Positions 5,701 to 38,411 of a stretch of 48,002 nt of DNA are shown piece after piece. The notes below the pieces were generated by a model, which searched no databases, was not told the origin of the DNA, and worked only from the letters and a program-made list of their open reading frames with translations. Position 1 is the first letter of the stretch; each line of letters starts with the position of its first letter. Position numbers and translations under genes: made by a program. Origin of the DNA: a virus. Where the stretch lies: IMG/VR virus record IMGVR_UViG_3300044972_001626, positions 1 to 48,002 of that record. One strand, given 5' to 3'.

Positions 5701-5942
5701 AAGAGGGTGGGGGGGTCTTTTGAGGATTGAGAGGGTGTTGGAGGAGAATTGAGGGTATTAGAGGTTTTTGAGAAAATTTAAAGTTGATTGGCTAGCCGCC
5801 ACGATTTTCTGACGGAAAGGGGACCCATTCTACTGTCTGGACAGTGAAAGTCAAGTTAATTCTCTCAAGAATTTGAAAAAATCTGTCGCCAGGGCGATAA
5901 TATTATCGGACGCATCACAGGGCGAATCTTCGATACATCCCC

Positions 5943-6736: not shown

Positions 6737-6772
6737 CAGCACCCGGCTCCCTACGACGGAGGCCGGGTGCTG
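6737..6772 (+). terminator. terminator-like hairpin (unit A)
   Basis: CAGCACCCGGC pairs with GCCGGGTGCTG. Nearly the same hairpin closes the operons at 7596, 8471 and 9358. There is no T-run after it, so it could be an mRNA 3' end stabiliser or a factor-assisted terminator. Confidence 0.6.
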
Positions 6773-6784
6773 TCGCATCTACAC

Positions 6785-6849
6785 GGCCTATCGGCAATCG
6801 GCGTAGCCGCCGATAGGCCTCAGTATACCGAGTTGCATAGAGATGTCAA
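6785..6849 (-). promoter_or_regulatory. boundary element A: leftward promoter + CTATCGGC hairpin
   Basis: On the minus strand TTGACA (6849-6844), 16 bp, TATACT (6827-6822), then the hairpin GGCCTATCGGC/GCCGATAGGCC (6819-6785). No leftward gene follows; the transcript would run antisense into the operon's 3' end. One of seven such elements in this block. Confidence 0.75.
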
Positions 6850-6895
6850 GAGAAATCTTTCAAGATTTGTAAATAAATTTCTGGACTGTATTGGC

Positions 6896-6949
6896 TTGTA
6901 TCGTTATGCGATTCGTGTACAATCCATGCAGACCGCGAAGCGTTTCGCG
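6896..6949 (+). promoter_or_regulatory. promoter with 5' stem-loop
   Basis: TTGTAT (6896-6901), 16 bp, TACAAT (6918-6923). A stem-loop (CGCGAA/TTCGCG, 6934-6949) follows near the expected transcript 5' end, and GGAG of the ribosome-binding site lies at 6967-6970. A 13-codon ORF from 6926 spans the stem-loop and ends at TAG in the ribosome-binding site. Confidence 0.6.
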
Positions 6950-6977
6950 TTCATCACCCCTCTGTAGGAGTAGACCT

Positions 6978-7586
6978 ATGAGCCAGATTCCAGCCGCCGT
7001 ATTCACCCTGTCCGCTACCCTCGTTTCCGCGATTCGTGACCATCGATGGATCCAAGACACTACAGCGTTCTTGGCTACCCGTAATGGTGAGGGAGAGTGT
7101 GACTGGGAGTCGGTCAATGATCTCTTTATGGACATGGCGGGAGCCGATGAACCATCTAATACTACTTGGTTTCATGGTCCTGAGCATATTGCCATGTGGG
7201 GTGTGTTTAACGATATGGTAAAGACGGCAGAGGTTCAGTATAAACGCGACCGTGAACGCCTCGTATTGGAGCAGCACGCTACGGCGTTTGCTGTCCGCTG
7301 CGGTTTCAAGGTCGGTACGCGTGAGTATGTCCTCGCTGCGCGTAAGGCGCTGGAGGAGGCACGGGACGCACACGCGGACCAGTTCAACGGTGAACGCCGT
7401 ATGGAGCGTGCAGCGACTAGCCGCGCGTGTGGCGTCTCTGACGATGATCACTACTCAAACGAGGATTACCTGTCCTCTGAATTCCACAAGGATGTGGAAT
7501 GGATGCAGGATGTTCTGAACTGGCTGGAAGAGAATTGCCCTCTTCTTATGCTCAAGATCGCGGAGGAGCCAGCACCAGCAGAGTAA
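6978..7586 (+). CDS. hypothetical protein, 202 aa
   Basis: Unrecognised. A clear GTAGGAG ribosome-binding site precedes the ATG at 6978, which decides the start. The protein is helical and charged, with several Trp and Cys (GECDWESVNDLF, TTWFHGPEHIAMWGVF, RAARKALEEA-type helices) and an acidic C-terminus. It is alone in its transcription unit, bounded by boundary elements A and B. GC-rich codon use as in the rest of the block. Confidence 0.7.
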   Translation: MSQIPAAVFTLSATLVSAIRDHRWIQDTTAFLATRNGEGECDWESVNDLFMDMAGADEPSNTTWFHGPEHIAMWGVFNDMVKTAEVQYKRDRERLVLEQHATAFAVRCGFKVGTREYVLAARKALEEARDAHADQFNGERRMERAATSRACGVSDDDHYSNEDYLSSEFHKDVEWMQDVLNWLEENCPLLMLKIAEEPAPAE

Positions 7587-7595
7587 TCTTTCACG

Positions 7596-7637
7596 CGACA
7601 GCACCCGGCTCCACCAAAAGGAGACCGGGTGCTGTCG
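7596..7637 (+). terminator. terminator-like hairpin (unit B)
   Basis: CGACAGCACCCGG pairs with CCGGGTGCTGTCG. Same family as the hairpin at 6737; no T-run. Confidence 0.6.
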
Positions 7638-7641
7638 CGTA

Positions 7642-7707
7642 CTATCAGCGAAATCAGCGTAGCCGCTGATAGGCCGAGCAGTGTACCATGCGGAGCAAGG
7701 ATGTCAA
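7642..7707 (-). promoter_or_regulatory. boundary element B: leftward promoter + hairpin
   Basis: Minus strand TTGACA (7707-7702), 16 bp, TACACT (7685-7680), then hairpin CTATCAGCG/CGCTGATAG. Relative to the other copies the stem has G-C replaced by A-T on both sides, a compensatory change that keeps pairing. Confidence 0.75.
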
Positions 7708-7763
7708 GCAAATTTTTTCAAGTTGGACAAGAAATTTTATTTGATATACTTTGTGGAATTCTC

Positions 7764-7820
7764 TTGCGTTGAATTGTGGTTCTGTTATAGTTCGGGCATG
7801 GAAACGAATCGTTCGTTTCC
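7764..7820 (+). promoter_or_regulatory. promoter with 5'-terminal stem-loop
   Basis: TTGCGT (7764-7769), 16 bp, TATAGT (7786-7791). The stem-loop GGAAACGAA / TTCGTTTCC with loop TCG (7800-7820) begins about where the transcript begins. Confidence 0.7.
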
Positions 7821-7848
7821 CCCGCCACTAGTAGGAGTAGACCTATGA
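7798..7848 (+). CDS. possible leaderless leader peptide, 16 aa
   Basis: The ATG lies 6 nt after the -10 box, so it could be read from a leaderless mRNA. The peptide is METNRSFPPPLVGVDL and its TGA overlaps the ATG of the next gene (ATGA), a classic coupling arrangement. The ribosome-binding site of the next gene is inside it. Its sequence resembles the in-frame leader before the 8714 gene. Translation is not proven; the stem-loop at its start may be the true function. Confidence 0.4.
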   Translation: METNRSFPPPLVGVDL

Positions 7849-8183
7849 GTTTCACACCGTCCGAACTGACCCCCGCCCCCGTTCTCGATACTGATAAACT
7901 GATGGGCGTTCCATTCATGACGCACACCGCTGCGTTGTGGATCCTCCGCAGTAACTTGGAATGGTCCGTTTCCCCATCCGTCCGCCGTTCCCCGAAGTTT
8001 GTAAAGTCCCTCCAATTGATGTGGGATTCACTGGAGCCAGTCATGAGAAAGATCGATGATCAGAACGAGAAAGTGCGACTGGCTCACAATGCCAGAATCC
8101 GCGCTCGGCAAGACCGTAGTCTAGTCCTCATGGTTGAGGGAGCCCCGATTAAACTCGGAGCCGAACGTCCCGCCGGAGCCTGA
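7845..8183 (+). CDS. hypothetical protein, 112 aa
   Basis: Unrecognised. Preceded by GTAGGAGTAGACCT, the same ribosome-binding leader as at 6978. The middle is helical with Trp residues (ALWILRSNLEW, LQLMWDSLEPVMRKI), followed by an Arg-rich segment. First gene of a two-gene operon with the 8235 gene. No domain assigned. Confidence 0.7.
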   Translation: MSFTPSELTPAPVLDTDKLMGVPFMTHTAALWILRSNLEWSVSPSVRRSPKFVKSLQLMWDSLEPVMRKIDDQNEKVRLAHNARIRARQDRSLVLMVEGAPIKLGAERPAGA

Positions 8184-8190
8184 CCCACGG

Positions 8191-8208
8191 GGGGGGCGAA
8201 AGCCCCCC
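8191..8208 (+). promoter_or_regulatory. intercistronic GC hairpin
   Basis: GGGGGGC, GAAA loop, GCCCCCC between the two genes of this operon. GNRA-type tetraloop, no T-run. Confidence 0.65.
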
Positions 8209-8234
8209 TACCCTCTACCAAAGAAAGATTCACA

Positions 8235-8450
8235 ATGGCATACACTGACCGAAATTTCAAGACGAAGAAAGACCTGAAGGCGGCAGTAGCCGCAGGTGAT
8301 GTGACGGTGTTCGCTCCCGGACCGTTCGGGGGAGCAGTGCTCGATGGGCTCTGCTACTTGGAAGGACCACACTTCCCGAAGCCACACACATGGTACGCCC
8401 AAGTGTTCGTAGTGGACGGACGAATCAAGATGGGCACTCGCGTCAAATAA
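8235..8450 (+). CDS. conserved small phage protein, 71 aa
   Basis: The pattern KTKKDLKAAVAAGDVTVF ... LEGPHFPKPHTWYAQV resembles a small protein seen in many unrelated phages (EGPHxPKPHxWYA motif; recalled, not searched). The role of that family is unknown to me. A weak AAAGAAAG ribosome-binding site precedes it. Second gene of the 7845 operon, ended by the unit C hairpin. Confidence 0.75.
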   Translation: MAYTDRNFKTKKDLKAAVAAGDVTVFAPGPFGGAVLDGLCYLEGPHFPKPHTWYAQVFVVDGRIKMGTRVK

Positions 8451-8470
8451 CCAACCGCCTACTCCCGATG

Positions 8471-8502
8471 GCACCCGGCTCCCTACGACGGAGACCGGGT
8501 GC
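8471..8502 (+). terminator. terminator-like hairpin (unit C)
   Basis: GCACCCGG pairs with CCGGGTGC. Same family as at 6737 and 7596. Confidence 0.6.
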
Positions 8503-8511
8503 TGTCGCGTA

Positions 8512-8573
8512 CTATCGGCAAATCGGCTGCGCCGATAGGCCGCACAGTATACCACACAGGACGCGAATGTCAA
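8512..8573 (-). promoter_or_regulatory. boundary element C: leftward promoter + hairpin
   Basis: Minus strand TTGACA (8573-8568), 16 bp, TATACT (8551-8546), then hairpin CTATCGGC/GCCGATAG with a shortened inner loop. Confidence 0.75.
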
Positions 8574-8631
8574 GGACAAAATTAAAAGATTTGCAATATA
8601 AATTTATTTGTGAAATATCCGATGTACCCTA

Positions 8632-8688
8632 TTGCATTCCACAGTGGTATGGGTATGATTCGGGCATGGAAGCAAATCGCTTGCTTCC
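8632..8688 (+). promoter_or_regulatory. promoter with 5'-terminal stem-loop
   Basis: TTGCAT (8632-8637), 16 bp, TATGAT (8654-8659), then TCGGGC and the stem-loop GGAAGCAA / TTGCTTCC (8668-8688). Compared with the unit at 7800 both arms have changed while pairing is kept. Confidence 0.7.
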
Positions 8689-8713
8689 TTCGCCACTAGT
8701 AGGAGTAGAACCT

Positions 8714-8965
8714 ATGTCAGTAATTACCGGAGATCAGATTCCCGCCTTCCGCCTGTGTGTAATCCGTAGCGGGTTGCGCTTCGAGATCAAGTGCCCGGGT
8801 ATGCGGGTGTCGCGTAGATCACCCAAGATGAGTACGCTTGTCCGCCGCGAGTTTGGATTCAAGGGTACGCCTGTGAAGTTGCTCGCGCAGTTGGAACAAT
8901 GGATGAACGAACGCGGTTTCCCTGATGCCAAGGCAGACAAAGCCAAGACCGAACCAACCACCTAA
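8714..8965 (+). CDS. hypothetical protein, 83 aa (alternative start 8666)
   Basis: Unrecognised basic protein (MSVITGDQIPAFRLCVI...). The ATG at 8714 has the block's standard GTAGGAG ribosome-binding site. An ATG at 8666 is in frame and sits 6 nt after the -10 box, so a leaderless form longer by 16 residues (MEANRLLPSPLVGVEP) is also possible; in the sister unit at 7798 the same leader is out of frame. Two isoforms or a single leaderless start are both open. First gene of an operon with 9015. Confidence 0.65.
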   Translation: MSVITGDQIPAFRLCVIRSGLRFEIKCPGMRVSRRSPKMSTLVRREFGFKGTPVKLLAQLEQWMNERGFPDAKADKAKTEPTT

Positions 8966-8974
8966 CCTACTCCG

Positions 8975-8999
8975 GCGGAGGGGATGCGACCCCCTCCGC
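8975..8999 (+). promoter_or_regulatory. intercistronic GC hairpin
   Basis: GCGGAGGGG pairs with CCCCTCCGC around a 7-nt loop, between the 8714 and 9015 genes. Confidence 0.65.
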
Positions 9000-9014
9000 T
9001 AATAAAGGAACACA

Positions 9015-9344
9015 ATGAAGCGAATCACAGAAGTAGAATTGTACGGAACCTTGGACACGCTCAACACGCTCCTAGGTGAATCCCTGAACGGCGCGGACAT
9101 CGGTTCATACCATTTCTCCCGTGCCTATGGCGGATGGCAACTACATCGGACGGAAAACGCATCCGGTGGGATTCGTCAGATCACAGACGGGTATGTCTCC
9201 AAACGCCTGATGCTTGAACGGATGTGGGCGATGATCGCCGGTATCCGGATGGAATCCACCGCTGCGAATTACCGAATTGATAAACAGAAAGTAAAAAGTT
9301 GTTTTGACGCAGGGGAACATTGGCCATCAAATCAGACTAACTAA
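9015..9344 (+). CDS. hypothetical protein, 109 aa, paralogue of the 12477 gene
   Basis: Function not recognised. The core YGGWQLHRTENASGG followed by a helix with ERMWAMIAGIRME matches, at the same spacing, GYGWKLHRQTSSP and NFLVNTLTAIHLE of the protein at 12477, so the two are probable paralogues. AAAGGA ribosome-binding site. Second gene of the 8714 operon and closed by hairpin D. Confidence 0.7.
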   Translation: MKRITEVELYGTLDTLNTLLGESLNGADIGSYHFSRAYGGWQLHRTENASGGIRQITDGYVSKRLMLERMWAMIAGIRMESTAANYRIDKQKVKSCFDAGEHWPSNQTN

Positions 9345-9357
9345 CCTACTCCCGATG

Positions 9358-9389
9358 ACACCCGGAACACCAAACAGGTGCCCGGGTGT
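9358..9389 (+). terminator. terminator-like hairpin (unit D)
   Basis: ACACCCGG pairs with CCGGGTGT. An A/T-rich tract follows at 9397-9432. Same family as units A-C. Confidence 0.6.
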
Positions 9390-9436
9390 TGTCGCATTAA
9401 AAAATAAAAATAAAAATAATAAATTTTATTTTTGTA

Positions 9437-9499
9437 CTATCGGCGAATCGGCGTAGCCGCCGATAGGCCGGAGTATACCCACCGGTAAGCGGATGTCAA
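9437..9499 (-). promoter_or_regulatory. boundary element D: leftward promoter + hairpin
   Basis: Minus strand TTGACA (9499-9494), 16 bp, TATACT (9477-9472), then hairpin CTATCGGCG/CGCCGATAG. Leftward of the hairpin lies a T-rich tract where a short transcript could end. Confidence 0.75.
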
Positions 9500-9545
9500 G
9501 CAAATTCCGCCAAGATTCGTAATATAAATTTATTTGATATTGTGC

Positions 9546-9592
9546 TTGCATTCCGTAGTGATATAGGTATGATTCGGGAGGCAATTCCGCCT
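9546..9592 (+). promoter_or_regulatory. promoter with short 5' stem-loop
   Basis: TTGCAT (9546-9551), 16 bp, TATGAT (9568-9573), then AGGC/GCCT stem-loop at 9579-9592. AAAGGA ribosome-binding site just before the 9613 gene. Confidence 0.65.
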
Positions 9593-9612
9593 ACCTTGAA
9601 AGGATTGAAGCA

Positions 9613-10347
9613 ATGACACTTTCCCTCACGCAATACCCTACGAACACGACGAACGATATCGCCGCATTCGATGTCGATAAGATGTCTTACATGGCGAACG
9701 CGATTCGCGGCATGAAATGGGATGCATTGAATAAGTTTACGGGCGGATTATCGGCACCGTCTAAGATGCCATGCTACGCGTATAGCATTTCAGCCCATCG
9801 ATGCAATGTCGGTCGCAAACTCCGCCTAGTCGCGGGTAGCACTTGCGCGAATTGCTACGCTTTGAAGGGTCGATACGAATTCCCGAATGTAAAGGAAGCA
9901 ATGGAACGCCGGTATTCGGCAATGATGAACGATTCTATGGCATGGGCGGCGGCTATGGTAGCGTCAATCAACAAGACTAAATTGCCATACTTTCGGTGGC
10001 ATGATTCCGGAGACATTCAAGGAATGAATCATCTAGCGGCAATTAATGCCATTGCACACCTTACACCAACCGTACAGCATTGGATTCCGACGCGCGAGTA
10101 TGGGTTGATTCGCGAATGGAATCGCAATGCGTTTACCTTTGCACGCAATCTTACGGTACGCGTATCCTTGCCGATGGTCGGTAAACTCGACGGATCTGCA
10201 GAATGGGCGAACTATTCAACGGTGGACGCGATTCCGACGGATGGTACTTCGGTAGTGTGCCCATCGTCCCAACAAGGCAATCAATGCGTCGATTGCCGAT
10301 CATGCTGGGATAAGAATATCGAGTGTGTTTCATATGTGAAACACTAA
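9613..10347 (+). CDS. GP88-like phage protein, 244 aa
   Basis: Resembles the phage GP88 family (recalled, not searched): a cysteine-rich N-terminal half with CYAYSISAHRC and CANCYALKG, a central RWHDSGDIQG motif typical of the family, PTREYG, and a C-terminal cluster CPSSQQGNQCVDCRSCW. The many paired cysteines suggest a metal or Fe-S centre. The biochemical function of the family is unknown to me. It is alone in its transcription unit between elements D and E, with its own promoter and a true T-tailed terminator. Length is in the normal range for the family. Confidence 0.8.
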   Translation: MTLSLTQYPTNTTNDIAAFDVDKMSYMANAIRGMKWDALNKFTGGLSAPSKMPCYAYSISAHRCNVGRKLRLVAGSTCANCYALKGRYEFPNVKEAMERRYSAMMNDSMAWAAAMVASINKTKLPYFRWHDSGDIQGMNHLAAINAIAHLTPTVQHWIPTREYGLIREWNRNAFTFARNLTVRVSLPMVGKLDGSAEWANYSTVDAIPTDGTSVVCPSSQQGNQCVDCRSCWDKNIECVSYVKH

Positions 10348-10367
10348 ATTAATTCAGGCTTCAATCC

Positions 10368-10406
10368 TCCCTCGCTATCGGGCGTTCCGGTGGCGAGGGA
10401 TTTTTT
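10368..10406 (+). terminator. intrinsic terminator of the 9613 gene
   Basis: TCCCTCGC pairs with GCGAGGGA and is followed by TTTTTT. Within the 335-base gap 10348-10682, which otherwise holds element E and a promoter. Confidence 0.85.
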
Positions 10407-10456
10407 ATTTAAAAATAAAATTAAATTAAAATTAATAATTTTTATTATCGGGCGTA

Positions 10457-10527
10457 CTATCGGCGAATCGGCGTAGCCGCCGATAGGCCGCAGGCTCGGA
10501 GTATACCGACTTGGACAAGATTGTCAA
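10457..10527 (-). promoter_or_regulatory. boundary element E: leftward promoter + hairpin
   Basis: Minus strand TTGACA (10527-10522), 16 bp, TATACT (10505-10500), then hairpin CTATCGGCG/CGCCGATAG. A leftward transcript would meet the terminator at 10368 from its opposite side. Confidence 0.75.
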
Positions 10528-10595
10528 GACAATTCCGACAAGATTGAAAGAAAATCTTTCTGATGAAATATTTGAATAAACATCGTACTTAGTGG

Positions 10596-10647
10596 TTGAC
10601 ATAGGATCTAGATCGGATAAGATAAACGCATCGAAGGAATCGTTCCT
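10596..10647 (+). promoter_or_regulatory. promoter with 5' stem-loop
   Basis: TTGACA (10596-10601), 16 bp, TAAGAT (10618-10623), then stem-loop AGGAA/TTCCT with loop TCG (10635-10647). Confidence 0.7.
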
Positions 10648-10682
10648 CCGAAGGATTAGAGAACCTCAGTTGGAGAACTGCA

Positions 10683-11132
10683 ATGAAGAGTAAGAACCCA
10701 TCATTCTTTGAGTCTGAAATGCCCCTGTTCGTTGGATCGTCCACCCAAGCCGGATTGACCGCCCCGAATGGACGGCGCGGTAGTGGTGCTGAAACGACCG
10801 AAGACAATATGTACACGGGTTACGAGCGCACCCCTCGCGCCTGTGTGTACGGTGTCGCAACCCGTTGGGCTGTCGGTGGTGCATACGCGATTCGTACATT
10901 CGTCTGCCGCCTGACAGGTGCATCCAAGGCAGGACGGTGCGTCATCCGTCTTCAGGCTGAGACTTCCCGCCGAATGAAGGGATACGGGTTCATGGAGGTC
11001 ATCATGACCAAGGAAGACGGTAGCACCTTCTGTGTCCTGCTGAACGCCCGTGATGCCCGGAGCATGGCGCAGACCCTGAATGCCGCAGCCAATTCTTGCA
11101 ATGCCATGTGGCGCAAGCGTAACATCCTCTAA
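10683..11132 (+). CDS. hypothetical protein, 149 aa
   Basis: Unrecognised. Starts MKSKNPSFFESEMPLF with GGAGAA upstream as ribosome-binding site. The C-terminal half has beta strands and a helix (FMEVIMTKEDGSTFCVLL then NARDARSMAQTLNAA). Basic and GC-rich. First gene of the longest operon in the block (10683-13015). Confidence 0.7.
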   Translation: MKSKNPSFFESEMPLFVGSSTQAGLTAPNGRRGSGAETTEDNMYTGYERTPRACVYGVATRWAVGGAYAIRTFVCRLTGASKAGRCVIRLQAETSRRMKGYGFMEVIMTKEDGSTFCVLLNARDARSMAQTLNAAANSCNAMWRKRNIL

Positions 11133-11148
11133 ACTCCAACTGTGGTAA

Positions 11149-11175
11149 GGTGGGGGGCAACCGTAGCCCCCCACC
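11149..11175 (+). promoter_or_regulatory. intercistronic GC hairpin
   Basis: GGTGGGGGGC pairs with GCCCCCCACC around AACCGTA, between the 10683 and 11193 genes. Confidence 0.65.
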
Positions 11176-11192
11176 AAACCGGAAAGAACACA

Positions 11193-11585
11193 ATGCCACT
11201 ACTCACAATCAAATCGTCCATTCTCCCCAAAGAGTTTGCCACAATCTTCGCCCCCAACACTACAATCATCATCGAGTACGAACCGTCATCATGGACAACG
11301 TACCCTGCTGAACCTGACTGTGGAATCTTCTCCGATTATCGTGATGTTGAGGATGTCGAGATTCTGTCCATCGTTCAACAGATAATGGTTGGAGCAGATG
11401 TTGATTCGGAAGAGGAGATTGCTACCCCTACTGATACTGCTCTGCTTGACGATATCAAGCGGATGTGCATCGAACACTTCCAAGAGGATCACGACGATTC
11501 CGATTGGAGCAGCAATGCTGACGAAGATCATTCAGAATGGAAAGCAGACATTCGCCGTGATGAACCCGACTATGATGACCGCTAA
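11193..11585 (+). CDS. acidic hypothetical protein, 130 aa
   Basis: Unrecognised. The start at 11193 (MPLLTIKSSILPKEF) follows GGAAAG; a longer frame reaching back across the hairpin is rejected. The protein is strongly acidic, with a C-terminal Asp/Glu/Ser/Trp-rich tail (HDDSDWSSNADEDHSEW). Very acidic small phage proteins can mimic DNA, but nothing specific supports that here. Confidence 0.7.
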   Translation: MPLLTIKSSILPKEFATIFAPNTTIIIEYEPSSWTTYPAEPDCGIFSDYRDVEDVEILSIVQQIMVGADVDSEEEIATPTDTALLDDIKRMCIEHFQEDHDDSDWSSNADEDHSEWKADIRRDEPDYDDR

Positions 11586-11600
11586 TTCAAGGAAACAAAA

Positions 11601-11975
11601 ATGAAAATCAATTTCAATCGTGCAGAAGTTTGTCCGCCTTTAGCCAAGGCAATGTACAAAAACCTTATGGATAAGGCGGACAATATGTTGGCGTGGCATA
11701 AGGATCCACGCCAGGTAAACGAGTTCTTTGCCTACGCAGAGATCATCACTTCGCTCCCCATCGAATGGTTCAACCATGAAGAGCGTAGTGAACTAGTACA
11801 TAGTGTTGTCGATCTCCACGGAGACTTTCATGATTTCATGTCGAACATCATGGACGGCAGTACATCGTATGTAGCCAAGATGGGGTGGGACAGACATTCT
11901 ATCTGTGTTCAAATCCTTCAAGAGTCTGCTGCAATCGCAATGACCCTACCTGAATCTGACAAGGGGTGGAACTGA
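11601..11975 (+). CDS. hypothetical protein, 124 aa
   Basis: Unrecognised, all-helical protein (MKINFNRAEVCPPLAKAMYKNL...), with AAGGAAAC upstream. Its stop codon shares bases with the next ATG (TGATG), so the pair is translationally coupled. Part of the 10683-13015 operon. Confidence 0.7.
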   Translation: MKINFNRAEVCPPLAKAMYKNLMDKADNMLAWHKDPRQVNEFFAYAEIITSLPIEWFNHEERSELVHSVVDLHGDFHDFMSNIMDGSTSYVAKMGWDRHSICVQILQESAAIAMTLPESDKGWN

Positions 11976-12295
11976 TGTTCATCGAACGCCTCGAATGCTT
12001 CCCATCGAACCACGAGATTCGTGCCGTGGTTCGATGGGGGGACTATGACGAGAATCGTCAATCCCTGTTCTTTCATGTTCGTGATGGAATGCTCTCACTC
12101 GTGTTCTCAAGTGTCCAAGATGCCGAAGGCATTCCACCACTAGACTTTGAGGATATGAAACGGCACATTCTGTATATGCTCTTGCAGACTCATGCTGCTC
12201 AAGCAGAACAGACGAACAATCACCAAAAAGAAATTGAAAAATCTTTCAGTAATGTTGTTGAGTTCACCCAAGTAGAAGATACAATAGACCTATGA
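11975..12295 (+). CDS. hypothetical protein, 106 aa
   Basis: Unrecognised. Start at 11975 (MFIERLECFPSNHEIRAV) is preferred because the ATG overlaps the previous stop (TGATG) and GGGG lies upstream. The N-terminal part looks like a small beta sheet, the C-terminal part a Gln/His-rich helix. Its TGA overlaps the next ATG. Confidence 0.7.
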   Translation: MFIERLECFPSNHEIRAVVRWGDYDENRQSLFFHVRDGMLSLVFSSVQDAEGIPPLDFEDMKRHILYMLLQTHAAQAEQTNNHQKEIEKSFSNVVEFTQVEDTIDL

Positions 12296-12480
12296 AAACC
12301 ACCGCCATCATCTTCCGTTACATCATGACTCTCCTCTTTGTCGCACTCGCCTCTTATGTCACTTGGGAAGCCGCTACTGCCGGATACTTTGATTGGTTTA
12401 TGATTCCCGCTGTGTTGCTTGTTTGGTCAACGGTAATCATCTACCCGATCATGCTCAAGGATGGGGAGGCTTCTCTGTGA
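12292..12480 (+). CDS. small membrane protein, 62 aa
   Basis: Two hydrophobic segments (about residues 5-25 and 34-53) with a short charged tail; probably a two-helix inner-membrane protein. Coupled on both sides (ATGA with the previous gene, GTGA with the next). Candidate for a membrane-acting early protein, function unknown. Confidence 0.7.
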   Translation: MKTTAIIFRYIMTLLFVALASYVTWEAATAGYFDWFMIPAVLLVWSTVIIYPIMLKDGEASL

Positions 12481-12743
12481 GTAGAAAACTTACTGACAAA
12501 GATTTGGATCTCATGCTCAACTGCCTGAACGATCTGATGAAGACTGTCAATGGAGATATGTTTATATTGGAGAAACAGGTGGGATATGGATGGAAGTTAC
12601 ATCGCCAGACCTCATCGCCTAAATGTCAAATCGAATTGGTCTCACCCAATTACTTCATCACTAAAAACATGATGTGGAACTTTTTAGTAAACACCTTAAC
12701 GGCTATCCATCTCGAAGCAAATCAAACAGAGGTAACAGTATGA
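12477..12743 (+). CDS. hypothetical protein, 88 aa, GTG start, paralogue of the 9015 gene
   Basis: GTG at 12477 is chosen because it overlaps the previous stop (GTGA) and a GGGGAGG ribosome-binding site lies upstream; a longer frame inside the previous gene is rejected. The core GYGWKLHRQTSSP and the helix NFLVNTLTAIHLEAN match the 9015 protein. Both have an N-terminal helix of similar length, so this is probably a diverged duplicate. Confidence 0.65.
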   Translation: MSRKLTDKDLDLMLNCLNDLMKTVNGDMFILEKQVGYGWKLHRQTSSPKCQIELVSPNYFITKNMMWNFLVNTLTAIHLEANQTEVTV

Positions 12744-13015
12744 AAACCGATGAAACTGAATCAATCAACCTTCTCATCAGTCTTTTGAATCTTCGCCATG
12801 ATGCAGAGATGCACGTTGTCTTCGCTAAAATCTCCGATCCTAATCATTACATGGAAGGAGTGAAGATGTTTGTTCGTGAGATGCAGACTCACAACATTGG
12901 CATTCGTATGTTGTTGGATGGCAAGTACCTCGAATTGCCAGCATGGTTCACAGACAACACTTCAGAGGAAGCAGTAGAGAAAGTGCGTAACAGCATTCAA
13001 TTAGAAAACATCTAA
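12740..13015 (+). CDS. hypothetical protein, 91 aa
   Basis: Unrecognised. The ATG at 12740 overlaps the previous stop (ATGA) and follows GAGGTAAC. Predicted helical, mixed charge (MKTDETESINLLISLLNL...). Last gene of the 10683 operon, followed at once by a strong intrinsic terminator. Confidence 0.7.
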   Translation: MKTDETESINLLISLLNLRHDAEMHVVFAKISDPNHYMEGVKMFVREMQTHNIGIRMLLDGKYLELPAWFTDNTSEEAVEKVRNSIQLENI

Positions 13016-13033
13016 AAAATTCAAAGAATTAAT

Positions 13034-13079
13034 ATATTCTTTTCCAACCTAAAAAATTGGAAAAGAATATTAATTTTTT
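13034..13079 (+). terminator. intrinsic terminator
   Basis: ATATTCTTTTCCAA pairs with TTGGAAAAGAATAT, followed by TAATTTTTT. It is also T-rich on the other strand, so it may stop the leftward transcript of element F. Confidence 0.85.
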
Positions 13080-13085
13080 ATTTGG

Positions 13086-13162
13086 CCTATCGGCTATAAT
13101 GTTGCGAAGCAACGCCGATAGGACGCGGGATGGGAGTATACCCACTTAAGTTTGGATGTCAA
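13086..13162 (-). promoter_or_regulatory. boundary element F: leftward promoter + hairpin
   Basis: Minus strand TTGACA (13162-13157), 16 bp, TATACT (13140-13135), then CCTATCGGC/GCCGATAGG. The inner part is a second hairpin (GTTGCGAAGCAAC), shared only with element G. Confidence 0.75.
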
Positions 13163-13218
13163 GACAATTCCGCCAAGATTTACAGAAAATCTTTTTGATC
13201 GAATATTGAAGAATAGTA

Positions 13219-13246
13219 TTGACTCCACTTTCAATTGTGTTACCAT
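13219..13246 (+). promoter_or_regulatory. sigma70-like promoter, leaderless
   Basis: TTGACT (13219-13224), 16 bp, TACCAT (13241-13246). The -10 box ends 6 nt before the ATG at 13253. Confidence 0.7.
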
Positions 13247-13252
13247 ACTCGC

Positions 13253-13486
13253 ATGGATATCAAACCAACAACCCCCTCCGATGAAATGCCCTGCACCTGC
13301 ACTAGCATGGATCAATATGTAGACGGGCTTTGCCCCGGCTGCATTGAAGCCGCAGACCGAACCGCTGACCTGAACGATGAGGAAGATGAATCGGCAGTAC
13401 GCGAAGGTGACGATGACCGTTACTACAGCGGTACAGGTGAATCGATGGATGATTCGTCTTACGAACGCTACCTGAACCGTGGATAA
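13253..13486 (+). CDS. small acidic zinc-ribbon protein, 77 aa
   Basis: Cys pairs CTC and CPGC about 15 residues apart suggest a zinc ribbon near the N-terminus, followed by a long acidic tail (NDEEDESAVREGDDD). Same plan as the 6456 protein. The start is set by the promoter 6 nt upstream and there is no ribosome-binding site. A longer frame begins upstream of the promoter and is rejected. Confidence 0.7.
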   Translation: MDIKPTTPSDEMPCTCTSMDQYVDGLCPGCIEAADRTADLNDEEDESAVREGDDDRYYSGTGESMDDSSYERYLNRG

Positions 13487-13511
13487 ATCTTACAAAGTTT
13501 CGATATTGTTG

Positions 13512-13540
13512 TTGAACAAACCTCTTACATAGGATACCAT
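13512..13540 (+). promoter_or_regulatory. sigma70-like promoter, leaderless
   Basis: TTGAAC (13512-13517), 17 bp, TACCAT (13535-13540). The -10 box ends 6 nt before the ATG at 13547. Confidence 0.65.
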
Positions 13541-13546
13541 ACCGAC

Positions 13547-13687
13547 ATGAAGATCAAGAACATAGACATGGATTGGGATGACGATGAAGACGAAGACAGC
13601 ATGGAAGATGAAGCCTGTCTACAGGGGCGTTGGGAACCCGTAGACGATGAGATTGAATCCCTGATTGATAACCTCGACAACGACTAA
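13547..13687 (+). CDS. very acidic small protein, 46 aa
   Basis: A short gene coding an Asp/Glu-rich peptide (MKIKNIDMDWDDDEDED...). Roughly two in five residues are acidic. Support comes from its own promoter with 6-nt spacing and from close packing against the next gene (TAAGGAGATACC, where the stop abuts the next ribosome-binding site). Function unknown. Confidence 0.6.
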   Translation: MKIKNIDMDWDDDEDEDSMEDEACLQGRWEPVDDEIESLIDNLDND

Positions 13688-13696
13688 GGAGATACC

Positions 13697-13999
13697 ATGG
13701 CGATTCTAAGTGACAGCGAGATTGCACAACTGCAATCGACAATCTTGGCAGCAGCACAGAGCAACAGGAAGCCGCAGATCAGCGAGATCCTCGCATCCGT
13801 TCAGTACGCAGTTCTGTCCGCTGTGGACGAGAGTGGCATGGTTTGGTATCAGGATGCGGAATGCCGCGAACTGATTATGCGCTCTCTTCACAAGTTGATG
13901 GACGATAACACTCCGGATATGTTCACTCCGGTTGAGAAGGCGTTGATCATCAACCTGATGGCATTGGGTCAGTTGGCAATCATGTTGGAAGGTGCATAA
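13697..13999 (+). CDS. hypothetical protein, 100 aa
   Basis: Unrecognised all-helical protein (MAILSDSEIAQLQSTILAAAQ...), with a strong AAGGAG ribosome-binding site immediately after the 13547 stop. Two-gene operon with the acidic protein. Confidence 0.7.
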   Translation: MAILSDSEIAQLQSTILAAAQSNRKPQISEILASVQYAVLSAVDESGMVWYQDAECRELIMRSLHKLMDDNTPDMFTPVEKALIINLMALGQLAIMLEGA

Positions 14000-14042
14000 A
14001 CCACTAGCCTTGATGTAAGTCAGTTAAACTAGAGCGCAGTAG

Positions 14043-14135
14043 ATGCTCGAAATTACGACTGCTGTTGGGGCAACCGTAGCCATCATAATCCTGATGAGCC
14101 GTACAAAACAGGTGAGCGGGTGGAGACCCGGCTGA
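14043..14135 (+). CDS. possible tiny membrane peptide, 30 aa
   Basis: A short frame with a hydrophobic stretch (TTAVGATVAIIILM) followed by a basic tail. No good ribosome-binding site and no promoter, so support is weak. A GGAGACCC/GGGTCTCC hairpin (14122-14147) overlaps its 3' end and precedes the tRNA. Confidence 0.3.
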   Translation: MLEITTAVGATVAIIILMSRTKQVSGWRPG

Positions 14136-14153
14136 AACAGGGTCTCCAAGTTT

Positions 14154-14226
14154 GGGATCGTAGCGCAGTTGGTAGCGCAGGAAACTTTTAATTTCTTGGT
14201 CGTGGGTTCGAGCCCCACCGATCCCA
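14154..14226 (+). tRNA. tRNA-Lys (UUU)
   Basis: Complete cloverleaf: acceptor GGGATCG/CGATCCC, D-arm GCGC/GCGC, anticodon loop CTTTTAA (anticodon UUU), T-arm GTGGG TTCGAGC CCCAC. The 3' CCA is not encoded. Reads AAA/AAG lysine codons. Confidence 0.95.
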
Positions 14227-14240
14227 CTAAAGGAGACACT

Positions 14241-14540
14241 ATGGCAACTGAGAACGAAACATCACAAATCGTTTACGACATTCCGCTCAAGGGTAACTAC
14301 ACAGAAGGAGAGAGAGAATACACATGGGAGCGTTTGGGTGGGTTTTACTACTTCATCCTGAACAGCGGTAGTGACCTCTGCATTGACTGTAGGTTTGGTG
14401 AGGACAACCTGCCAATCTTTGAGGATGTCAGTTGTGTCTCTGTTGGGCTGCGAGGCGCAGAGAGTTACCTGAGCGAGGAGTACTTCGACTACCTTGAACC
14501 CCTGATCGAACATTTCAAAACTTTTCCAATTATTCGTTGA
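14241..14540 (+). CDS. hypothetical protein, 99 aa
   Basis: Unrecognised. The start at 14241 follows AAAGGAGACACT; the same leader precedes the 15552 gene. Acidic protein with aromatic-rich core (GGFYYFILNSGSDLCIDCRFGED) holding a CIDC pair. It starts 14 bases after the tRNA-Lys, so both may be on one transcript. Confidence 0.7.
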   Translation: MATENETSQIVYDIPLKGNYTEGEREYTWERLGGFYYFILNSGSDLCIDCRFGEDNLPIFEDVSCVSVGLRGAESYLSEEYFDYLEPLIEHFKTFPIIR

Positions 14541-14565
14541 CATTCACCCCTAAATCGGATATCAT
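14537..14565 (+). promoter_or_regulatory. sigma70-like promoter, leaderless
   Basis: TTGACA (14537-14542), 17 bp, TATCAT (14560-14565). It overlaps the previous stop codon and ends 6 nt before the ATG at 14572. Confidence 0.75.
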
Positions 14566-14571
14566 ACTCGT

Positions 14572-14847
14572 ATGAAAGAGATCGACCTGTTTGAATTGGC
14601 TGAAGACATTCTCGCAAACCCTGATCTCGCTGAAAAGTGGGAGATGGGCGAAGTAGACTTGGGAGATATGTTTGCCACGGTGTACACCCTTGGTAACGAG
14701 GAGATCCTTGTTATCTTTCAGAACCATCTTAGCGGAGAAATTGAGAATGTCGAAACCTATGCAGACGAAGAAGAAGCCACGGAAGCCATTATCTCGCACC
14801 AAATCAGTCACCAAGAAGACGTTGACTACTACCGCACAGAGGACTAA
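14572..14847 (+). CDS. acidic hypothetical protein, 91 aa
   Basis: Unrecognised, strongly acidic (MKEIDLFELAEDILANPD..., DEEEATEAI). The start is fixed by the promoter spacing of 6 nt and there is no ribosome-binding site. Directly followed by the 14849 gene with one base between stop and start. Confidence 0.7.
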   Translation: MKEIDLFELAEDILANPDLAEKWEMGEVDLGDMFATVYTLGNEEILVIFQNHLSGEIENVETYADEEEATEAIISHQISHQEDVDYYRTED

Positions 14848-14848
14848 G

Positions 14849-15112
14849 ATGCCATCAACCGGATTTGCCAAAGCATTGAGTGACGGCATGATCGTTAAGG
14901 TTGTCTTTCGCAAGAAGGACGGAACCACTCGCACTCTGAACGGAACCACCGATCTCAAGAAGGTTCCCAAGGTTGACCACCCATCGAAGGATGGCAAGAA
15001 GGCAGACTCGCCCGGTGTTCAGCGAATCTACGATCTTGACATCGGTGAGTGGCGAAGCGTGATTCTGACCACGATCAAGAAGTGGGAACCAATCGAGTAC
15101 GAATTGGTATAA
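14849..15112 (+). CDS. SH3-like beta-barrel protein (DUF2693-like), 87 aa
   Basis: The pattern VKVVFRKKDGTTRTLNGT ... GVQRIYDLDIGEWRSVILTTI matches the small beta-barrel family often annotated DUF2693 in T4-like phages (recalled, not searched). The family's role is unknown. Start at 14849 follows the previous stop and is preferred over a frame that begins inside the upstream gene. Its stop codon is part of a TATAAT box for the following tRNA. Confidence 0.75.
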   Translation: MPSTGFAKALSDGMIVKVVFRKKDGTTRTLNGTTDLKKVPKVDHPSKDGKKADSPGVQRIYDLDIGEWRSVILTTIKKWEPIEYELV

Positions 15113-15113
15113 T
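15106..15113 (+). promoter_or_regulatory. extended -10 promoter for tRNA genes
   Basis: TGG-TATAAT (extended -10 type) at 15106-15113 overlaps the stop codon of the 14849 gene and lies 4 nt before the tRNA-Leu. No convincing -35 box. Confidence 0.4.
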
Positions 15114-15117
15114 GTGT

Positions 15118-15190
15118 GGCGCGGTAGACCAACGGCAGAGTCAACAGACTTAAAATCTGTCAAGTGTGGGTTCGAGTCCCACCCGCGCTA
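15118..15190 (+). tRNA. tRNA with anticodon UAA (Leu), short variable arm
   Basis: Acceptor GGCGCGG/CCGCGCT (one G-U pair), anticodon stem ACAGA/TCTGT with loop CTTAAAA (anticodon UAA, leucine codon UUA), T-arm GTGGG TTCGAGT CCCAC. The variable region is only 5 nt (CAAGT), whereas bacterial tRNA-Leu has a long variable arm. The D-stem has three clear pairs. Charging identity is therefore uncertain. Confidence 0.85.
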
Positions 15191-15195
15191 CCTCT

Positions 15196-15269
15196 ATTCC
15201 CGTAACTCAGTTGGATAGAGTAACAGATTTCTAATCTGTATGTCGTTGGTTCGAATCCAACCGGGAATG
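15196..15269 (+). tRNA. tRNA-Arg (UCU)
   Basis: Acceptor ATTCCCG/CGGGAAT, D-arm ACTC/GAGT, anticodon stem ACAGA/TCTGT with loop TTTCTAA (anticodon UCU), T-arm GTTGG TTCGAAT CCAAC. Reads AGA/AGG. Lies 5 bases after the tRNA-Leu. Confidence 0.95.
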
Positions 15270-15282
15270 CTTGACTTTCAAC

Positions 15283-15303
15283 AAAGGAGAGGATACAATG
15301 TAA
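15283..15303 (+). other. strong ribosome-binding site before an AUG-UAA mini-ORF
   Basis: AAAGGAGAGG followed 5 nt later by ATG TAA. A ribosome would start and stop at once. It may be the remnant of a lost gene or a translation-based regulatory site. The region 15270-15437 holds no other feature I can support. Confidence 0.4.
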
Positions 15304-15437
15304 TGTATATCACCACAAACAATATAATACTTTATTCGGGTTGACGGCATAACTGACCAGTGTGAACGGGTCAGGAACCGTATAGAGGTAGCCTATGGTT
15401 GCCCGGTTGGACACTCGCCGTAAGAGTAGTGTCATAC

Positions 15438-15513
15438 AGAAGGGTGGCTGAATTGTAGTTAGAGCGCGTGCCTTATAAGCGCGAATATGTGGGTGCAACT
15501 CCCGCCCCTTCTA
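15438..15513 (+). tRNA. tRNA-Ile (UAU)
   Basis: Acceptor AGAAGGG/CCCTTCT, anticodon stem CGTGC/GCGCG with loop CTTATAA (anticodon UAU), T-arm GTGGG TGCAACT CCCGC with one G-U pair. The T-loop is TGCAACT rather than TTCRANY. Reads the rare AUA codon. Confidence 0.85.
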
Positions 15514-15551
15514 TTCGTGATTGGTTTACTACATTTTACAAAGGAGACACT

Positions 15552-15815
15552 ATGGTTACAGCAGATAACATTGGATGGTTTGTGGCAGGGTTGATGGTTG
15601 TTGTGTTCGTAGCGTACTACATTAAGTCGATGGCAAAGAACTTTCGGGCAGAGATGCTTCAACGCATCGAGGAGATTGACCTCGGACTCAGCCGTGAATT
15701 GGAACAAGTCCACATTAACCACGACAAACGCTTTACACGCATTGAGAACACCATTGTTCGTATGAGAGATCAATGCGACAAGAGTCCTTGTTGCGTTAAC
15801 GAATACCCTTCGTAA
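15552..15815 (+). CDS. small membrane-anchored coiled-coil protein, 87 aa
   Basis: An N-terminal membrane helix (about residues 7-25, WFVAGLMVVVFVAYYI) is followed by a charged coiled coil and a short Cys-containing tail (DKSPCCVNEYPS). AAAGGAGACACT ribosome-binding site. Likely an inner-membrane protein with a cytoplasmic coil; function unknown. Ends at an intrinsic terminator. Confidence 0.7.
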   Translation: MVTADNIGWFVAGLMVVVFVAYYIKSMAKNFRAEMLQRIEEIDLGLSRELEQVHINHDKRFTRIENTIVRMRDQCDKSPCCVNEYPS

Positions 15816-15840
15816 GGTTGTTCAACTCCCGCTTTCCCCT

Positions 15841-15876
15841 CACACCGAAGTCAGAGTCGGTGTGGGGTTATTTTAT
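15841..15876 (+). terminator. intrinsic terminator
   Basis: CACACCGA pairs with TCGGTGTG, followed by GGGGTTATTTTATTT. The 330-base gap 15816-16145 otherwise contains element G and the leader of the 16146 gene. Confidence 0.8.
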
Positions 15877-15925
15877 TTAAAATTATTTTATATTAATTTA
15901 TTATTAATTTTTATTATCGGACGTA

Positions 15926-16002
15926 CTATCGGCTAAAATTGTTGCGAAGCAACGCCGATAGGCCAGGATGGCGCATTATACCACAAAGCACACAGATGTC
16001 AA
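15926..16002 (-). promoter_or_regulatory. boundary element G: leftward promoter + hairpin
   Basis: Minus strand TTGACA (16002-15997), 16 bp, TATAAT (15980-15975), then CTATCGGC/GCCGATAG enclosing GTTGCGAAGCAAC. Strongest -10 of the seven elements. Confidence 0.8.
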
Positions 16003-33837: not shown

Positions 33838-33844
33838 TTGACAT

Positions 33845-34133
33845 TGTTGATATCGGAACGAGAGTTGCACAACACAGGGGTTCGACTCCCCTCGGGTCCA
33901 TTAGGTGTATTCAGAATGTTCTGCGACTTCTGATAAGCCGAACCAAGTCCTCGCCGCAGTGGGGCATTTCTTAAGGGCCCGTTAAGGTATCGATTGGCAA
34001 GTAGTAGTGAAGAAGGAGATGTCCGTTTCGGGTAACAAGAAACGTAAATAAACAGTTGCAAACCATGATTGCTAACCAATTAGCAATGGCTGCTTAAAGC
34101 AGTGGGGTCTGGTCTCCCGCATCTGAATCGACC
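33845..34133 (+). ncRNA. ssrA: circularly permuted (two-piece) tmRNA
   Basis: tmRNA rescues stalled ribosomes by acting as tRNA and mRNA. The T-arm and 3' acceptor end come first: AGGGG TTCGACT CCCCT (33876-33892) and CGGGTCC-A (33893-33900). The 5' acceptor strand GGGCCCG (33975-33981) lies downstream, pairs fully with it (one G-U), and is followed by the D-like AAGGTATCGATTGG. Next come a pseudoknot-like CCGTTTC...GAAACG and the tag region GCAAAC... ending GCTGCTTAA (near 34095). The order is that of permuted tmRNA genes, with a 74-base intervening segment containing a TCAGAA/TTCTGA hairpin. The tag frame is discussed as a finding. The 5' and 3' limits are approximate. Confidence 0.8.
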
Positions 34134-37384: not shown

Positions 37385-38411
37385 TGCAGAAAAACTGCTT
37401 CAGATAAGCGATTGACTGATTTACCCCAATTTTATTAACATCTAGTGTATTTTCTATCTGTTTAATGGCTATCGACTCAGTTAATAAATTATTGGTAGAT
37501 ATGCTATTCATAAAGTTTTCAGCTACTTTATTCCATTTACCTTTTTTATTTTTATACTCTTTGGTAATGGTTGAGTCTGTTTCTTCTTTTAACATAGATG
37601 ATACTGATTTTGTACTCCAAGTTTTACAAGCCCAATAGTTGGCTTTCCATTTTGGTCCTGGATCTTCACAGTTATGTCTGGCACGAAAATTCTTTCGTCG
37701 TGCAGGATCATCTCGTTTAATCTCCATATTGGGATCACCAAAGTTTACTTTAACAACATTACCTTTATCATTCTTGGTGTAAACTTTGTATTTCTTTACA
37801 TCACCACGCATAATTTTATTGAGCTTAACTTTTTTACCAGCCATCTGGGAAGCTTCTTCTAGTTCACCATACTCATTAATAAAATTAGATCTACCTTCGC
37901 CAACTAATCCAAATTCTTCATTCATTTTAATTTCAATGCAGTCATCATAACCTTCATTGATTCCATTATGATATTTGATATCCATTGTAATGATACCATC
38001 ATTATCATTGATGTCATTTACTTCAAAGAGCTGTCCATTTTTGGTAATAAAAATATCATATGCTTCTGCATCTGCTGGAGTTACAGTTGGATAACCAATT
38101 TTAGTTCCACCAAAATTTTCTACAACAAAGATATCTGGTGTAAATGATTCTTCTACTTTGGATTTCTTATCAGTCTTTGTTTTCTTGGTTGCTAATTGTT
38201 TTCTTTTTACAAATTTAGCAATACCTTTTTTACCAAGTGATTCTGCTTTTTCTTTATCAATACAAACATTAAATGCTGATCCTGGTTTTCCTTCGCTGCA
38301 TTTTCCAAGTTTTTTACCATTTACGTCATAACGGTCTTTGAGTTTGTTTGTATCAACAGAACTAAAGACTTTCTCTAAAATTAATTCTTTTAAAGCACGT
38401 TTAAAATTCAT
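37380..38411 (-). CDS. capsid-targeted protein with DUF5754-like domain, 343 aa
   Basis: MNFKRALKELILEKVFSS has a capsid-targeting style with ILE-K. An early KLGKCSEGKPGSAFNVC segment follows. A later region (KKVKLNKIMRGDVKKYKVY, NFGDPNMEIKRDDPARRKNF, RARHNCEDPGPKWKANYWAC) matches the domain often annotated DUF5754 in cyanophages (recalled). Several Cys suggest zinc binding. ATG overlaps the stop of the 38408 gene. Likely a virion or prohead-associated protein. Confidence 0.75.
   Translation of the reverse strand: MNFKRALKELILEKVFSSVDTNKLKDRYDVNGKKLGKCSEGKPGSAFNVCIDKEKAESLGKKGIAKFVKRKQLATKKTKTDKKSKVEESFTPDIFVVENFGGTKIGYPTVTPADAEAYDIFITKNGQLFEVNDINDNDGIITMDIKYHNGINEGYDDCIEIKMNEEFGLVGEGRSNFINEYGELEEASQMAGKKVKLNKIMRGDVKKYKVYTKNDKGNVVKVNFGDPNMEIKRDDPARRKNFRARHNCEDPGPKWKANYWACKTWSTKSVSSMLKEETDSTITKEYKNKKGKWNKVAENFMNSISTNNLLTESIAIKQIENTLDVNKIGVNQSIAYLKQFFCK

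Follow-up and report, generated by a model that had tools for sequence, protein, structure and literature searches.

The window analysed here is the whole 48,002-nucleotide stretch of the IMG/VR virus record IMGVR_UViG_3300044972_001626 (positions 1 to 48,002). It comes from an uncultured phage in which seven gene-module boundaries each carry a stem-loop, SL1, together with a leftward promoter, PL. Sequence comparisons indicate that PL is maintained as a promoter by selection. Our favoured reading, to which we give a probability of about 0.45, is that these elements serve as cis-acting antisense punctuation between exchangeable modules, that SL1 caps the RNA at its 5' end, and that modules are exchanged at the block as a whole.

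All seven minus-strand promoter-hairpin elements of the original prediction were recovered. The SL1 pattern CTATCNGC-N1..30-GCNGATAG has 7 matches in the window, where 100 dinucleotide-preserving shuffles gave 0.00 expected, and TTGACA-N16-TAYAMT has 9 matches against 0.03 expected, seven of the nine being the PL sites linked to SL1. The PL boxes, TTGACA followed after 16 positions by TATACT, TACACT or TATAAT, are found on the minus strand upstream of 7/7 hairpins. As only 4-18 nucleotides (nt) separate the end of the -10 box from the CTATC stem of SL1, the predicted leftward start lies at or slightly ahead of SL1. A simple consensus scan gave PL 10-12 matches out of 12, which is above the rightward promoter (PR) of the same gap wherever a PR is recognisable.

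The same elements are present and paired in four close relatives (IMG/VR contigs 3300042465_004012, 3300011115_000717, 3300034116_001390 and 3300011115_000854, here G001 to G004), solely within the matching small-gene region. A covariance model found 20 SL1 copies in the window and these four relatives and none elsewhere in the ~450 kb searched, which included four more distant CobS relatives; nor did it find further degenerate copies in this sequence. Promoter flanks are intact in 19 of the copies, and PL lies beside 19/19. Eighteen of these promoters are of the TTGACA-16 type, and the remaining one, at the 7642 hairpin in G004, is TTGCAT-17-TATAAT with an unrelated spacer, still a good promoter. 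The fixed boxes and 16-bp spacing described earlier hold for all seven window copies but not for this copy in G004.

Outside this set, the element was absent from the more distant CobS relatives (<=74% identity), no match was obtained in cultured phages, and plasmids gave AT-rich noise only. GTDB genomes and other viral contigs yielded 47 and ~23 pattern matches, respectively, none of which had a TTGACA-type promoter with an equivalent CTATC stem on rescan. Viral scans using the shared ribosome-binding motif gave no extra family members, and scans using the bare promoter gave none among the matches listed. A known RNA family was dismissed since no Rfam match exceeded the gathering score; the sole sub-threshold match, to SIB_RNA (17 bits versus 56), lies away from the elements. 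Within the databases searched, the element is confined to one narrow phage group.

Substitutions were counted in orthologous gaps. None was found in the PL boxes (0/108), the PR boxes (0/72) or the SL1 stems (0/144), compared with 5/144 in the PL spacers, 8/96 in the PR spacers and 21/510 in the PL-PR interval. Boxes and stem together differ from the PL-PR interval with p=0.0002, and the PL and PR boxes differ from the spacers with p=0.0008, whereas the PL boxes against the PL spacers alone reach only p=0.07. Among the seven window copies, identity reaches 95% in the boxes but 36% in the spacers. The unchanged boxes between relatives, together with this difference among the copies, show that PL is maintained as a promoter. 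Of the earlier proposal of selection on a transcribed structured RNA, selection on the PL boxes and SL1 stems is supported, and the predicted transcripts would open with a strong hairpin; its covariation part is reduced to one event, as described below.

Most of the gaps have a divergent PR, and the AT-rich interval is common to both promoters, so PL might be a non-functional by-product of a divergent (bidirectional) promoter architecture. We consider this very unlikely, as PL has conserved boxes and matches the consensus better than PR does. Furthermore, other rightward promoters do without PL: at 12258 and 14537, where no terminator precedes the promoter, neither PL nor SL1 is found.

SL1 folds strongly on both strands, with leftward z-scores of -2.6 to -4.5. 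The outer stem is nearly invariant in sequence, and the inner hairpin and the 3'-side bulge vary. The inner hairpins are GGC-UAC-GCC, GUUGC-UUC-GCAAC and GUUGC-UCC-GCAAC, with a different short form at 8512; the loops differ among the copies (UAC, UUC, UCC, GCA), as does all RNA 3' of the hairpin. Paired changes in the hairpin had been reported from the window, and one of the eight outer pairs is indeed compensated at 7642, from G-C to A-U. However, this single change was equalled in 54/500 shuffles, which leaves the claim of covariation weak. Two folds compete in the short-loop copies, where a nearer repeat (CGCCGAT/CGCTGAT) is an alternative pairing partner for the 5' arm. Both repeat copies have changed along with the arm in the 7642 copy, keeping both folds, and SL1 may possibly be a two-state hairpin. 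The complementarity between SL1 and the PR leader hairpins, inspected by eye, looks like chance.

Near-equal folding on either strand would also suit an SL1 acting on DNA or in rightward read-through RNA, as a REP-like palindrome, a 3'-end protector or a roadblock, with the adjacent PL as a separate feature. Bacterial REP palindromes have a similar layout of stem, bulge and inner hairpin. This explanation is improbable in our view, since SL1 is always located immediately downstream of the -10 box of PL, is not found away from PL in the ~450 kb searched, and has no rightward U-tract. A DNA operator dyad is likewise unlikely, as the two half-sites lie anywhere between 11 and 20 nt apart, whereas a fixed operator would have constant spacing.

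From left to right, the gaps are ordered as stop codon, 3' hairpin or terminator, SL1, PL pointing left, an AT-rich interval and, mostly, PR pointing right (Table 1). The earlier account of the gaps was correct for the leftward elements but overlooked the rightward promoter in most of them. As the 3' hairpin, copies 1-4 have a GC hairpin (SL2), copies 5 and 7 a rightward terminator with a U-tract, and copy 6 an AT-rich hairpin. PR has a 16-nt spacer where it is recognisable, which is the case in most gaps. The predicted PR transcripts are mostly hairpin-first (e.g. GGAAACGAATCGTTCGTTTCC after the PR at 7764) or leaderless, with the ATG 6-7 nt past the -10 box. Because the PR leaders are of these kinds, opening the RNA with a 5'-terminal hairpin looks like a common property of these promoters, SL1 being the version that belongs to PL.

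The neighbouring genes point rightward and have intact frames, with third-codon-position-biased substitution relative to the relatives. No convincing open reading frame was found in the predicted PL transcripts. On these grounds we reject a leftward mRNA, in agreement with the original prediction, and the elements lie antisense to the genes.

In the favoured reading, PL is a near-consensus sigma70-type promoter that would give a short untranslated RNA starting at SL1 and reaching, in antisense orientation, the 3' end of the upstream module. Antisense transcription and interference between RNA polymerases at the boundary would adjust expression of the upstream module and keep transcription from reading through into the module that follows. 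SL1, as the first part of this antisense RNA, would protect it against 5'-dependent decay, and the hairpin block would double as a homologous joint, so that an incoming module receives the same boundary. A U-tract accompanies the terminators at 10368 and 15838 in the rightward direction only, and therefore leftward RNA polymerase could enter the upstream gene. SL1 has no U-tract in either direction, and a single leftward terminator-like site (13070-13034) was found. We favour cis-antisense punctuation because the layout matches both the cII-tO-oop-pO arrangement of phage lambda and synthetic terminator/antisense-promoter pairs. Among the functions suggested earlier, antisense control of each upstream module fits best; a base-pairing small RNA family is not supported, as there is no shared seed.

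Several observations weigh against this interpretation. The output of PL is predicted: that PL fires, that its RNA is short, that interference is its function and that SL1 stabilises the RNA are all inferred, as is anything functional other than the selection acting on the promoter. The substitution counts behind purifying selection are small and the relatives are close. Interference alone leaves the conservation of the SL1 stem sequence, beyond pairing, unexplained. Three of the upstream SL2 hairpins are without a U-tract either way and so mark no clear 3' end for the leftward RNA. Additionally, the PL of the first module is degenerate and without SL1, and no clear rightward promoter is seen in the 15926 gap.

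The stem sequence is near-invariant although the PL spacers have diverged, and the layout of outer stem, inner hairpin and 3' bulge is kept despite different inner sequences. Such conservation would fit a multi-copy trans-acting small RNA or protein decoy. In that case the seven near-consensus promoters would turn out large amounts of short RNAs capped by a hairpin, and a protein of the host or the phage (e.g. an RNase or an RNA chaperone) would bind to the conserved stem, with the A/U-rich 3'-side bulge as something that may be part of the binding site. The presence of seven copies, each nearer to promoter consensus than its partner PR, is also in line with this. Since it is the stem sequence that is conserved, and not pairing alone, we keep protein binding as an alternative, although a doubtful one: in the short-loop copies an alternative fold competes with the outer pair, and the element is limited to one phage group without an Rfam match. 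Loops, bulge and downstream RNA differ among the copies, so that no shared seed exists. A trans-acting family working by base pairing is disfavoured, as the copies show no conserved unpaired seed and nothing beyond the stem is conserved. About as doubtful is a phage-encoded family of short RNAs with a conserved 5'-terminal stem and possibly two exclusive hairpins, made in large amounts from the seven promoters and acting in trans on a host or phage RNA-binding protein, to which each joining module would add a copy.

Comparison with the relatives showed exchange of modules at the hairpins. Two pieces are missing from G003, namely the 6.5-7.6 kb module and the 9015-9344 gene. In G004 the 7642 SL1 is joined to a different PL and a different gene, which is a 55%-identical paralogue of the first module gene of the window. 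The breakpoints are at 7602, within SL2, at 7675, where SL1 ends on its right side, and at 9336, where the SL2 block begins. These alignments indicate that the hairpin/terminator region is a joint where relatives have swapped modules, which the earlier account of the hairpins, otherwise upheld in part, had overlooked. Three contigs of relatives terminate within SL1 (L138 17967-17999, L144 7896-7928 and L147 1-28), probably as assembly breaks at the repeat.

The elements could then be chiefly recombination joints, with the hairpin as short homology for shuffling and PL as a passenger or residual promoter. Gain, loss and replacement of modules that break at or beside SL2/SL1, and contigs ending inside SL1 as assemblies do at repeats, agree with this explanation. 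Nevertheless, homology needs neither the retention of promoter boxes while spacers diverge nor a replacement promoter with compensating spacing as in G004, and we therefore judge it unlikely that recombination is the main role. Under antisense punctuation the same block would serve both purposes.

Table 1. Positions of the promoter, hairpin and terminator elements in the window.
Feature	Position	Strand	Remarks
SL1 copy 1	6788..6816	-	hairpin, extendable to 11-bp stem GGCCTATCGGC
PL copy 1	6822..6849	-	TTGACA-16-TATACT
PR copy 1	6896..6923	+	TTGTAT-16-TACAAT, weaker match
SL2 copy 1	6738..6772	+	GC hairpin without U-tract, at 3' end of the preceding gene
SL1 copy 2	7642..7672	-	compensated pair CTATCAGC/GCTGATAG
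PL copy 2	7680..7707	-	TTGACA-16-TACACT, extended -10 TGG
PR copy 2	7764..7791	+	TTGCGT-16-TATAGT; hairpin GGAAACGAATCGTTCGTTTCC opens predicted RNA
SL2 copy 2	7594..7639	+	long GC hairpin; contains module-exchange breakpoint 7602 (versus G003)
SL1 copy 3	8512..8538	-	hairpin
PL copy 3	8546..8573	-	TTGACA-16-TATACT
PR copy 3	8632..8659	+	TTGCAT-16-TATGAT; hairpin GGAAGCAAATCGCTTGCTTCC opens predicted RNA
SL2 copy 3	8471..8502	+	GC hairpin
SL1 copy 4	9437..9466	-	hairpin
PL copy 4	9472..9499	-	TTGACA-16-TATACT
PR copy 4	9546..9573	+	TTGCAT-16-TATGAT
SL2 copy 4	9359..9389	+	GC hairpin
SL1 copy 5	10457..10486	-	hairpin
PL copy 5	10500..10527	-	TTGACA-16-TATACT
PR copy 5	10596..10623	+	TTGACA-16-TAAGAT
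Intrinsic terminator ahead of copy 5	10368..10400	+	rightward-only
SL1 copy 6	13087..13121	-	inner hairpin GTTGC-TTC-GCAAC
PL copy 6	13135..13162	-	TTGACA-16-TATACT
PR copy 6	13219..13246	+	TTGACT-16-TACCAT; leaderless start 7 nt downstream
AT-rich terminator-like hairpin ahead of copy 6	13034..13070	.	scored in leftward direction
SL1 copy 7	15926..15961	-	upstream of CobS-like gene
PL copy 7	15975..16002	-	TTGACA-16-TATAAT, 12/12 match, extended -10
Intrinsic terminator ahead of copy 7	15838..15867	+	rightward-only
Degenerate PL	5827..5854	-	TTGACT-16-TAGAAT, ahead of first module, no SL1

Further observations were made in and around the gaps. At the rightward promoters 12258, 13219, 14537, 22375 and 5943 (+) and others, the ATG is placed 6-7 nt past the -10 box, in excess over other distances, which suggests that leaderless mRNAs are common in this phage. 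Near ~7798 and ~8666 (+), and in L147 near 510, there are short upstream reading frames (METNRSFPPPLVGVDL, MEANRLLPSPLVGVEP..., MEAKRSLSPQLVGVDL). They begin at the predicted PR +1 and either end at the main start codon or enter it in frame, and might possibly encode leader peptides. The motif CCTACTCC is found just past the stop codons of module-last genes (6725, 8458, 8966, 9345) and complements AGGAGTAG, the ribosome-binding motif of module-first genes (6966, 7833, 8701). In the window, plus-strand copies of CCTACTCC and AGGAGTAG are confined to these sites, and pairing of the 3' untranslated region with the ribosome-binding site through the two motifs is a possibility.

Apart from a GP88-family protein at 9613-10347, the products of the module genes are without a Pfam match, and the PHROGs that they resemble, weakly, are of unknown function. 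A CobS-like gene and a CobT/peptidase-like gene lie beyond them at 16-19.7 kb, and the closest cultured homologues of the two, from T4-like cyanophages and others, are <60% identical. Seven tRNA genes were found (14154-15513, 24716, 33755, 47465), four of which are clustered at 14.1-15.5 kb among the module genes. A permuted transfer-messenger RNA (tmRNA; Rfam RF04321, 71 bits, above gathering) at 33840-34097 (+) adjoins a tRNA-Tyr, and ARAGORN calls an overlapping tmRNA with the tag VNKQLQTMIANQLAMAA. The 789-aa protein encoded at 38408-40777 (-) is 57-68% identical over its C-terminal 75-85 residues to a piece from Vibrio phages (e.g. ICP2), and its remainder is unmatched; the matches suggest that this C-terminal piece is a shared mobile domain.

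If PL fires as predicted, the phage has a standardised module boundary, in which a 3' hairpin is followed by an antisense promoter, its RNA capped by a hairpin, and in most cases by a forward promoter, all of them placed on the DNA joint of module exchange. A newly acquired gene would then drop in pre-insulated, and the boundary would be a natural counterpart of synthetic terminator/antisense-promoter parts. The seven parallel copies form a clean set for asking what antisense transcription at gene ends does.

Repeated cassettes named PeSL (promoter-early stem-loop) are known from the T4-type phages RB49/phi1 (Arbiol 2010 and Comeau 2014, as cited in PMC4503421). The likeness consists of repeated strong sigma70-like promoters with stem-loops among small genes of unknown function, and of the cassette as the breakpoint of module gain or loss between close relatives (here 7602, 7675, 9336). 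Should the favoured reading be correct, PeSL-type shuffling would extend to a phage without a close cultured relative; the only link seen between this phage and the T4-type is the CobS/CobT-like homology to T4-like cyanophages. In PeSL cassettes the promoter drives the downstream gene, and the stem-loop is the terminator. The present elements depart from the first of these defining features, since the hairpin-linked promoter here points backward in all copies, and a separate, weaker PR points forward in most gaps. The conserved stem-loop SL1 is furthermore without a U-tract, whereas the terminators at 10368 and 15838 have one.

In phage lambda, OOP RNA represses cII (PMC5869508). The pO-oop-tO unit resembles the present layout in having a leftward promoter before a rightward gene, from which an untranslated RNA crosses the gap and enters the preceding gene at its 3' end (PMC5869508). 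OOP is, however, a single-copy element that has a terminator of its own and acts on a known target, cII, whereas here there are seven copies with a conserved 5'-terminal hairpin, and the RNA is predicted. Repression of the overlapped gene by RNAs of the OOP type involves RNase III. P22 sar, lambda aQ and other phage antisense RNAs are similarly short and transcribed from their own promoters, but they are single-copy and target-specific, and none is a repeated family at module boundaries (PMC12197685).

Terminator/antisense-promoter pairs at the 3' end of a gene shift its expression in E. coli, and unidirectional terminators let antisense RNA polymerase proceed in the synthetic pairs (Brophy and Voigt 2016, PMC4731013). 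The gaps resemble these pairs in that a cassette closes with a unidirectional terminator and an antisense promoter placed beyond it, as at 10368 and 15838. The synthetic pairs are engineered and have no 5' hairpin, whereas the elements described here are natural, repeated and combined with module exchange. The parts are of known kinds, namely PeSL-like shuffling cassettes and OOP-like backward promoters. The literature searched gave no example of the two combined in a repeated boundary element.

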